Source of the DNA: Hymenobacter sp. BT18
Lineage (GTDB): Bacteria > Bacteroidota > Bacteroidia > Cytophagales > Hymenobacteraceae
Reading direction: 5' to 3'
NCBI RefSeq assembly: GCF_012273015.1
Contig: NZ_CP050954.1
Span: 2,108,001 to 2,172,000 of the forward strand
DNA: 64,000 bases
The position numbers and the translations under genes were made by a program. Shown one piece after another: positions 23,134 to 52,711 of this stretch; the first letter of the stretch is position 1; every line of letters begins with the position of its first letter. Under the pieces are notes generated by a model that was not told the DNA's origin, made no database searches, and saw only the letters and a program-made list of their open reading frames with translations.

Positions 23134-23200
23134 GTTGCTGGTTTCTGGTTGCTGGTTTCTGGTTCCTAGTTATAAGCCAGCAACTAGCAACCAGAAACTT
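23132..23200. repeat. heptad-periodic inverted repeat filling the patatin-aquaporin gap
   Basis: Directly after the patatin stop codon the plus strand reads in 7-nt steps: GTTGCTG at 23134, GTTTCTG at 23141, the same two again, then GTTCCTA at 23162; the right part is the same pattern on the other strand. Arms 23132-23158 and 23174-23200 match at 23 of 27 positions. It fills the gap between convergent stop codons and may act as a two-way terminator. Units fit G-Y-T-N-N-Y-R. Confidence 0.85.
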
Positions 23201-50764: not shown

Positions 50765-51184
50765 CTACGGGTGGGCGGCTACCCACACGTCCCCATCTTC
50801 GTAGAATTCTTTTTTCCAGATGGTTACCACCTGCTTTAGGGTATCGATGATGTACTGGCAGGCGGCGAAGCTCTCGGCCCGGTGCGGCGTGGATACAGCC
50901 ACTACCACGGCCACGTCGCCGATATACAGCGTGCCTTTGCGATGCACAACGGTTACTTTTTGCAGCATCGGCCACCGCTCGGCGGCTTGCTCGGCTACTT
51001 TACGGAGCTGATGCAGGGCCATGCTGTCGTAAGCCTCATACTCGAGGCGCACCACGGGCCGCCCGGTGCTTTGGTTGCGCACCGTGCCGATAAACGTGTT
51101 GATGGCTCCGGCTCCATCGGCCTCCACGCTGCGCAGGGCAGTCGGTACGTCGATGGGTTGGTCGGTTAGGTCAATGTGAATCAA
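50765..51184 (-). CDS. moaE: molybdopterin synthase catalytic subunit MoaE
   Basis: 139 residues. Start taken at TTG 51184 (reads MIHIDLTDQPIDVP), because a longer frame runs into the palindrome at 51216 and gains residues foreign to the family. Motifs: AGAINTFIGTVRNQSTGR, LEYEAYDSMA, VTVVHRKGTLYIGD and TLKQVVTIWKKEFYEDG with the two catalytic lysines. With MoaD it puts two sulfurs on precursor Z to make molybdopterin. It lies downstream of moaD with 155 bp between, filled by two repeats. Confidence 0.9.
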   Translation of the reverse strand: MIHIDLTDQPIDVPTALRSVEADGAGAINTFIGTVRNQSTGRPVVRLEYEAYDSMALHQLRKVAEQAAERWPMLQKVTVVHRKGTLYIGDVAVVVAVSTPHRAESFAACQYIIDTLKQVVTIWKKEFYEDGDVWVAAHP

Positions 51185-51215
51185 GGAGCTGAGAAGGTGA
51201 GTGAGGAGAAAAGAA

Positions 51216-51301
51216 CGTCCTGCTGAGCGCAGCCGAAGCATCTCTACCGCAAATCGTGAGGACGAAGCGGTAGAGATGCTTCGGCTGCGCTCAGCAGGAC
51301 G
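51216..51301. repeat. perfect 35-bp inverted repeat in the moaD-moaE gap
   Basis: Arm 51216-51250 (begins CGTCCTGCTGAGCGC, ends CATCTCTACCGC) is perfectly complementary to arm 51267-51301, with a 16-nt loop. No direct target-site duplication is seen at its edges. It looks like a REP/REPIN-type or MITE-like extragenic palindrome. In RNA it would form a very strong hairpin between two cotranscribed genes. Confidence 0.92.
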
Positions 51302-51307
51302 GGCTGT

Positions 51308-51342
51308 AGTACTTGGAAACCGGCAACTGGAAACCGAAATTA
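51308..51342. repeat. heptad repeat at the end of moaD
   Basis: On the plus strand five 7-nt units: AGTACTT, GGAAACC (51315), GGCAACT (51322), GGAAACC (51329), GAAATTA (51336). On the coding strand these read GTTTCCA and GTTGCCG, close to the patatin-end units GTTTCTG and GTTGCTG. The last unit contains the moaD stop codon. Confidence 0.75.
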
Positions 51343-51588
51343 CCCGCCACTTACCGGCGGAATCAGAGCAATTTCGTCGTGCTCCCGCAGCGGGGTATCA
51401 TCGGCGGCGTACTCGTTGTTGACGGCCACGGCCAGGGAGCTGAGGCGGGCCAGGGCCGGGTAGCGGGCGTGCAGGTCTTGGAGCAGGCCCTGGGCCGACT
51501 GCCCTTCGGGCGCCACCATTTCCAGCGTCGGCTGCCCTACGATTTCGCGGGCAATGCCAAACAAAGCAACTTTCAGGTTCATGGACAT
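51340..51588 (-). CDS. moaD: molybdopterin synthase sulfur carrier subunit MoaD
   Basis: 82 residues from ATG 51588 (MSMNLKVALFG); ATG 51582 is equally possible. Ubiquitin-like sulfur carrier: NLKVALFGIAREIVG, LAVAVNNEYAADDTPLREHDEIALIPPVSGG, ending in the Gly-Gly that is adenylylated by MoeB and thiocarboxylated. First gene of a moaD-moaE unit; diverges from moaA with about 110 bp between starts. Confidence 0.93.
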   Translation of the reverse strand: MSMNLKVALFGIAREIVGQPTLEMVAPEGQSAQGLLQDLHARYPALARLSSLAVAVNNEYAADDTPLREHDEIALIPPVSGG

Positions 51589-51700: not shown

Positions 51701-52711
51701 ATGGCAAGCTTCCCCGCTCCTTCCGTTTTATTCGATAACCACGGCCGCCCGCTGGAGTACCTGCGCCTGGCCGTGACGGACCGGTGCAACCTGCGCTGCT
51801 TTTACTGCATGCCCGAGGAAGGTATTCAGTACCTGCCTAAGCAGGAGCTGCTCACCTACGAGGAAATGGAGCGGCTGGTAGGCATCATGGCCCACCTCGG
51901 CGTGCGCAAAGTGCGCCTGACGGGCGGGGAGCCATTCGTGCGCCGCGACCTGGTGCCGTTTATGGAGCGTCTGAGCCAGCTGCCCGGCATAGAGGAGCTG
52001 ACGCTGACGACCAACGGCGTGCTGACCGCGCCCTACGTGCCGGCCCTGGCCAGCATGGGCGTGCGGGCCGTGAACCTGAGCCTGGATACCCTGGACCGCG
52101 CCCGGTTTGCCAGCATCACGCGCCGCGACGAGCTTCCCCGGGTACTCGATACCTTCTATGCCCTGCTGGCGGCCGGCATCCGGGTCAAAATTAACGCCGT
52201 GGTGATGGACGGGCAGAACACCCAGGACTTACTGCCTCTGGCCGAGCTGACCCGCGACCTGCCCGTAGATGTGCGCTTCATCGAGGAAATGCCCTTCAAC
52301 GGCCATAGTCACGCCGCTACCCTGCCCTGGAACCACGTGCGCATCCGGGAGCACCTGGCCCTGAACCTGGGCGAGCTGACGCCCGTGCTTACCCGCCCCG
52401 GCGATACGGCCTCCCACTACACCGTAGCCGGCCACCAGGGCCGCTTGGGCATTATTGCGGCGTACTCGCGCACGTTCTGCGGCACCTGCAACCGGATTCG
52501 TCTCACGGCGGAGGGTGGGCTTAAAACCTGCCTCTACGACCAGGGCGTGCTGGACATCAGGGCGCTGCTGCGGGGTGGAGCCTCTGATGAGCAAGTAGCC
52601 GAGGCCCTACAACAGGCTTTCCGCAACCGCGCCGCCAATGGCTTCGAGGCCGAGCAGCAGCGGCCTACGCACCAGCTCAGCTTCGAGTCGATGAGCACGA
52701 TTGGGGGGTAG
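51701..52711 (+). CDS. moaA: GTP 3',8-cyclase MoaA (radical SAM)
   Basis: 336 residues, cytoplasmic. The N-terminal radical-SAM cluster motif TDRCNLRCFYC (Cys29, 33, 36), LTGGEPFVRRDL (SAM binding), TTNGVL, and the C-terminal second 4Fe-4S cluster TFCGTCNRIRLTAEGGLKTC. The C terminus ends MSTIGG, keeping the conserved GG tail needed for catalysis. First committed step of Moco synthesis. Start ATG 51701; it diverges from moaD. Confidence 0.97.
   Translation: MASFPAPSVLFDNHGRPLEYLRLAVTDRCNLRCFYCMPEEGIQYLPKQELLTYEEMERLVGIMAHLGVRKVRLTGGEPFVRRDLVPFMERLSQLPGIEELTLTTNGVLTAPYVPALASMGVRAVNLSLDTLDRARFASITRRDELPRVLDTFYALLAAGIRVKINAVVMDGQNTQDLLPLAELTRDLPVDVRFIEEMPFNGHSHAATLPWNHVRIREHLALNLGELTPVLTRPGDTASHYTVAGHQGRLGIIAAYSRTFCGTCNRIRLTAEGGLKTCLYDQGVLDIRALLRGGASDEQVAEALQQAFRNRAANGFEAEQQRPTHQLSFESMSTIGG

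Follow-up and report, generated by a model that had tools for sequence, protein, structure and literature searches.

A perfect inverted repeat between moaD and moaE of Hymenobacter sp. BT18 is one copy of a dispersed family of CGTC-tagged REP-like dimers

A long, perfect palindrome between two genes of one operon raises the questions of where it came from, what keeps its arms identical and whether it serves the genes around it. In the window, that is, the whole 64,000-nucleotide stretch of Hymenobacter sp. BT18 DNA that was analysed, such an inverted repeat separates moaD from moaE. Its two arms (51216-51250 and 51267-51301) are 35 nt long, 100% complementary and joined by an asymmetric 16-nt spacer (51251-51266). 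Three heptads, GGAAACC GGCAACT GGAAACC, follow at 51315-51335 on the forward strand. The gap measures 155 nt from the moaD stop (51340) to the moaE start (51184), and the palindrome and heptads account for 107 nt of it. A sequence-only reading had described a perfect 35-bp inverted repeat and heptads filling most of this gap, and the description is confirmed at these positions.

The genes on either side are readily named. moaD, the upstream member of the pair (51340-51588, reverse strand), encodes a protein that scores above the NCBIfam cut-off for MoaD, as does the product of the MoaA gene (51701-52711, forward strand) for its own model. moaE (50765-51184, reverse strand) matches the MoaE model with an E-value of 1.2e-30 and 106 bits, which is under the strict NCBIfam cut-off of 175 but names MoaE clearly nonetheless. 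In an alignment of 30 loci (L110-L139), the column of TTG 51184 reads TTG in 20 and ATG in eight, and the remaining two have ATG as the next codon. This makes TTG 51184 the likely moaE start, in line with the earlier preference for that codon; the ATG at 51241, within the hairpin, is probably fortuitous. The heptad signal in the moa gap is weak but real: the only exact match to three GGNAAC heptads in the whole BT18 genome lies there, and allowing one mismatch gives nine matches in five places including the moa gap, with none for the reversed control. The heptads are more numerous in the moa gap of several relatives, and the H. metallilatus locus (L122) differs there by a 7-nt gap. Elsewhere in the window, the heptads GTTGCTG GTTTCTG, which resemble those of the moa gap, form an inverted repeat at 23134-23198.

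Two CGTC-tagged REP-like units, joined tail to tail, make up the palindrome, which is one copy of a dispersed family. Each arm contains the motif (C)GTC-AT-nnn-GA-GC-GNA-G(Y)C-GA-n'n'n'-AT, where n' is complementary to n. The head is (C/T)GTC, the pyrimidine (Y) is optional and the tail is CTC or CTT, so that a unit consists of a 5-bp stem, the inner GAGCGNAG(Y)CGA and the CTC/CTT tail. In the left arm (forward strand) the head CGTC is followed by the stem CTGCT/AGCAT, the inner GAGCGCAGCCGA, the tail CTC and then TACCGC; the right arm (reverse strand) carries the same unit inverted. Both arms open with CGTC; the short palindrome of a unit has an unpaired CGTC/TGTC tag on one end. The window copy begins its stem with CT/AT, having C for A at the first stem position, and its first pair is broken. 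With at most one mismatch, 106 places in the BT18 genome match the motif (control 0), and 76 of 100 among the matches listed fit it exactly, AT/AT included.

A head-anchored motif recovers 153 arms at 88 sites in 864 kb (40 BT18 stretches picked for holding copies, plus the window) and none in the reversed control. It replaced a looser motif (two substitutions, few fixed bases) that had returned 208 sites, 100 of them in genes. Compensating stems predominate among the 153 arms, with GCT/AGC in 92 (both loop types), CCT/AGG in 23, TCC/GGA in 11 and GTC/GAC in two; the uncompensated GCA/AGC occurs in five, and there are single odd variants. For the 59 distinct strings among the matches listed for 395 Bacteroidota genomes, the stem triplets form 145 Watson-Crick pairs out of 177, compared with 83.5 by shuffling, and none of 2000 shuffles reached as high. 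By position, 53, 52 and 40 of the 59 strings pair, and all four bases occur at the N of GNA. With standard nearest-neighbour folding, a single arm gains no extra stability over shuffled DNA (z 0.44, 0.54, -0.43 and 0.72). The inner GCGNAGC of the unit recalls d(GCGNAGC), a stable mini-hairpin.

The moaD-moaE palindrome is the sole copy in the window, yet a search with a 23-nt core, three mismatches allowed, gives 86 matches in the 4.69-Mb single-contig BT18 genome, against none for the reversed control; all 86 were recovered when the fetched stretches were re-read. Together with weaker matches (up to six mismatches), they make up 68 sites, of which 32 are simple +/- pairs. A REP-type dispersed repeat had been suspected from the window, and the inverted REP-like units and the genome-wide count, which shows that the palindrome is not single-copy, bear this out. 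The nearest named relatives of the BT18 genome are Hymenobacter species. Of 24 relatives from the genus, 22 have the core, with counts across the genus from 0 to 632 matches per genome; 14 genomes from elsewhere in the order, all of other genera, lack it. The exact unit motif occurs in 130 of 395 sampled Bacteroidota genomes (control 0). It was expected in other phyla as well; in a small sample of 18 genomes reached through loci, three Hymenobacter were positive and 0 of 15 others. A de novo census of the 864 kb found 109 palindromes scoring modestly or better and none in a first-order Markov copy, which excludes chance, and also revealed further subfamilies and unrelated palindromes. Another dispersed family, with ends like GTAGAGACGC...GCGTCTCTAC and unrelated to the CGTC-type units, lies at positions 398290, 984700 and 4604523 of the BT18 contig (G000:C1; in L194, L213 and L229) and also in L118, L122 and L127.

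The 88 sites comprise 56 tail-to-tail pairs with their heads outside, 28 single arms and four larger groups. By the calls of a home-made gene finder, tandem genes flank 73 of them, convergent genes nine and divergent genes four; one falls within a called gene, close to its edge, and one at a stretch end. Divergent sites (4 of 86) are rarer than the divergent share of intergenic bases (23%, p 5e-6) or of gaps (17%, p 0.001). Tandem sites lie a median 31 nt from the upstream stop and 90 nt from the next start. The slots vary between species, though no clean filled/empty pair was obtained among those compared. At about 1153767-1154934, a palindrome seemed to have taken up 1.1 kb of inserted DNA, but the stretch consists of two dimers with a gene lying between them. 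The gene is UbiA-like (named by eye), and the dimers on either side of it (L200 8768-9935, G000:C1 1153767-1154934) are 1.07 kb apart.

Relatives show the moaD-moaE gap to be one ordinary place among many for palindromes. The gap could be delimited in 53 of 55 loci (the window and 54 others), only 23 of the 53 contain a palindrome, and the sequences are very different; hence this conclusion. Several gaps of 14-63 nt have no palindrome, and two measure only 14 and 16 nt. In 36 of the 55 loci a palindrome lies downstream of moaE, whether or not the gap has one too, some of these being plain short-loop hairpins. The comparison that the sequence-only reading proposed finds a palindrome that is neither conserved at the site in all relatives nor confined to it, and a special role in moa expression, which that reading had entertained, gains no support from the palindrome-free gaps and the variety of sequences. 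Its suggestion of recent arrival is not supported either, given the same insertion and loop in H. metallilatus, whose aligned moa region is about 84% identical in nucleotide sequence. A further inverted repeat 3' of moaE, with AT-rich ends that are variants of GGCCGTTGAACG...CGTTCAACGGCC, recurs in several Hymenobacter (L110, L113, L124-L128 and L139).

The H. metallilatus locus bears on how the arms are kept alike. It has the same insertion with an identical loop and alignable flanks, and over 86 nt it differs from the window by four substitutions, which are two mirrored pairs; no change is one-sided. Sets of four random substitutions left the arms matched in only 18 of 200000 simulations. 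Active upkeep of the arms, as opposed to mere youth, had been offered as a reason for their identity, and mirrored changes around an unaltered loop agree with it. The upkeep is partial: 14 same-slot pairs of elements from moa loci (80% or more alike) show 31 one-sided and 15 concerted changes. Partial matching is also seen within BT18, where 33 of 54 palindromes have mismatched arms and the arms of the 56 dimers agree at a mean of 21.8 of 26 positions (18.8 for shuffled partners; 23 dimers agree fully).

A second slot behaves similarly. At site A (BT18 3637237-3637340), 16 of 19 loci, BT18 included, have a scored palindrome, with 13 distinct arms; in two of the 16 only the inner part was scored. 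The alignment consists of these 16 loci, leaving out the three without a scored palindrome, and 97.7% of its cells pair, compared with 35-45% when partners are slid. Six of its 28 pairs have changed on both sides, two on one side only, one only by breakage and 19 never. At siteB, a scored palindrome is present in 14 of 23 loci and belongs to several families, some unrelated to CGTC-type units. The pattern of change suggests that the arms are kept matched by copying one another and not by a job in the moa operon.

Could an enzyme have spread these elements? The search for a REP-associated tyrosine transposase (RAYT) proposed in the sequence-only reading succeeds in part: the genome has one divergent RAYT-like gene, but it lies 160 kb from the moaD-moaE palindrome and no REP-like unit occurs within 1.5 kb of it. 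A search of the BT18 genome with Y1_Tnp (PF01797) gave no match and was first read as absence of a RAYT. This was overturned by NF047646, which matches a gene on the reverse strand (L326 1483-2076, G000:C1 2319606-2320190) at 34 bits, below the cut-off of 80; with Pfam Y1_Tnp the same gene scores 16.5 bits, below the cut-off of 23. The protein keeps NHVH (the HUH motif) and RQYLLAHP (the catalytic Tyr). NHxH and the Tyr are kept in the RAYT-like subfamily, and five of the six members aligned have HP where the Y motif has NP. A structural model (pLDDT 77.7) finds IS608 TnpA (2a6m, E 8.5e-4) and RAYT (4er8, E 1.6e-3) with Foldseek, at TM scores of 0.36-0.52. Judging from this model, the gene product is a RAYT-like HUH protein with a predicted Y1 fold and a putative enzyme.

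The distribution of such genes bears on their connection to the repeat. NF047646 has matches in 22 of 24 same-genus relatives, and a strong match to the RAYT-like subfamily was found in 17 of 28 same-genus genomes searched; PF01797 has matches in 27 of 39 genomes of a set that includes BT18. When 52 PF01797 loci were scanned with up to two mismatches, the motif appeared in four, with one clean dimer (L083). Among 17 subfamily loci, seven have a unit within 1.5 kb, and in three a unit or dimer lies within about 130 nt of the gene (L327 in G006, L335 in G016 and L341 in G001); none has units closely on both sides. Per 10 kb there are 1.52 sites in RAYT-like loci, against 1.18 in moa loci (53 of them) and 0.24 at other Y1/RAYT genes of the genus (38 loci), with no significant enrichment near RAYT-like genes over moa loci. 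In BT18, a unit lies no more than 150 nt away from 138 of the 655 genes in REP-rich stretches, which contain 73 of 84 exact matches, and compared with BT18 alone the RAYT-like neighbourhood looks richer in units, a comparison across genomes that differ in copy number. Core matches are more numerous in the 16 genomes whose match is strong (over 250 bits) than in the nine lacking one (Mann-Whitney p 0.007, a comparison chosen after looking at the data and ignoring kinship), and one genome, G003, has 123 core matches without a strong RAYT-like match. Outside the genus, a RAYT-like match was found in two of 18 repeat-bearing genomes (G073 and G308) and in one of 20 (G102) that had no exact motif match in the Bacteroidota scan. 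A link between the RAYT-like protein and the CGTC-type repeat is offered as a hypothesis. At another locus (L323, G018:C10 447583-448146), a TGA codon stands in frame close to the 3' end of the RAYT-like gene.

The account that we find reasonably probable is of dispersed REP-like dimers, once spread by an HUH enzyme in trans, whose arms are rematched by template switching. The HUH (RAYT-like) enzyme would have recognised a single-stranded DNA intermediate, by way of which copies spread, and the copies would persist in gaps downstream of genes, where they may do little harm. During replication, template switching within the palindrome would repeatedly copy one arm onto the other, so that the arms would tend to remain alike even as their sequence drifts. 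Transcribed into the moaD-moaE mRNA, the palindrome would fold into a long hairpin, and the effect of this, if any, is probably a by-product. A bolder version, in which REP dimers hold orthologous slots for the lifetime of the genus with their arms rewritten in concert and the RAYT-like subfamily is the trans-acting enzyme, strikes us as unlikely as a whole; if it is true, palindromy is inherited and sequence is not. The nearest competitor has the arms matched by ectopic gene conversion from other genomic copies instead of by switching within the element. The two dimers at L200 speak for it, sharing an identical 60-bp core with outer arms of the GNAG and TTG subfamilies in opposite order, a swap that suggests exchange between copies, as does the change of subfamily itself between species at siteB and the moa slots. 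The window and L122, however, differ at the same two pairs in both arms around an unchanged loop. Conversion would need tracts that spare this loop, whose 17-nt string was found only at the moaD-moaE site and in L122 among the sequence stretches examined, and we hold it to be unlikely. That the palindrome is a MITE of a DDE-type insertion sequence would fit its terminal inverted repeats and its dispersed, intergenic copies. Yet flanking direct duplications of 2, 3, 4, 5, 6, 8 or 9 nt at offsets 0-6 are not above shuffling in the 56 dimers (criterion, an excess of three or more), which is what HUH-type movement, unlike DDE-type movement, would leave, and 28 of the 88 sites are single arms; this origin is very hard to credit.

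The hairpin might instead be under selection as an RNA element, one that adjusts the moaD:moaE ratio by way of processing, stability or partial termination. Folded as RNA, the window element reaches -97.4 kcal/mol (z -12.4), and a T-rich stretch, TTCTTTTCTC, directly follows the hairpin on the transcript strand (51206-51215, reverse strand). T is enriched after the 47 tandem elements too (0.34-0.51 at positions 4-8, transcript strand). A terminator scan called none, but it allows loops of 3-8 nt, a range that excludes a hairpin with a 16-nt loop. In RNA the window hairpin would plausibly be a substrate for a double-strand-specific ribonuclease, and an effect on RNA processing is possible; furthermore, the palindrome is kept in H. 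metallilatus. If pairing served the RNA, the transcript strand should show more G-U than A-C. The non-pairs of the 47 tandem elements in BT18 divide into 21 GU, 23 AC and 23 other (p 0.88), and this missing excess favours upkeep by a strand-symmetric DNA process over RNA selection. Site A leans the other way, with eight G.T and three A.C making up its 11 non-pairs among 496, a small lean towards RNA. Rfam matches (AaHKsRNA41 and several mir families) are all below gathering scores and mostly on both strands. Since a palindrome is also missing from more than half of the moaD-moaE gaps (present in 23 of 53) and lies downstream of moaE in 36 of 55 loci, a selected RNA element appears improbable.

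What makes the family interesting is that both arms change in concert at orthologous slots. Compensatory stem changes are commonly read as proof of functional RNA, and palindromes with compensatory changes minus a G-U bias, as in the BT18 genome, offer a test bed for mutation-driven covariation versus selection. The CGTC-type family also bears on what mobilises CGTC-type REPs. In the literature searched, which leaves most subscription papers outside its coverage, there was no report of Hymenobacter REPs, intergenic palindromic repeats or the arm strings, nor of REPs combined with template switching; a term search of the accessible text of RepRanger (PMC12306157) finds no mention of Hymenobacter.

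Among known systems, quasipalindrome correction by template switching, as far as the accessible text of PMC8794818 goes, shares the double complementary changes in two arms; it was observed there in RNA genes and here in REP-like palindromes. The available portion of Di Nocera et al. 2013 (PMC3733652) describes CGTC-tagged REPs with a CGTC/TGTC head, an AT stem start and dimers, with Bacteroidetes among the hosts, located between tandem or convergent genes near 3' ends, and with no dedicated transposase known. The Hymenobacter family shares the tag, AT stem start, dimers and gene-context placement. CGTC families 1-4 are given in that portion an 8-9 bp stem, a 4-5-nt loop and a CCA tail, none of which the Hymenobacter unit has; it combines five stem pairs with a GA/GA and GC/GNA/GC inner part and a CTC/CTT tail. 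The dimers of families 1-4 are there mostly head-to-head, whereas those of Hymenobacter are mostly tail-to-tail (56 of 88 sites). GTAG REPs and REPINs with RAYT, from the same partly available source, have in common with our elements short palindromic units, inverted pairs, intergenic location and a RAYT-like gene in the genome, but carry a GTAG tag instead of CGTC/TGTC heads. TnpA-REP subclass 2.6 of Bacteroidetes, in the part of PMC6006769 at hand, comprises HUH-Y proteins with NHxH and WQ motifs and atypical repeats elsewhere in the genome. Here, too, a Bacteroidetes HUH-Y protein occurs in a genome that has atypical repeats at other places; that subclass has YIH[QN]NP, and the RAYT-like subfamily mostly Y-x-x-x-HP. 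The BT18 RAYT-like gene, with no unit within 1.5 kb, differs in this from both GTAG REP/RAYT and subclass 2.6. The moaD-moaE palindrome belongs to an unusual and well-populated REP variant and sits in an ordinary location.
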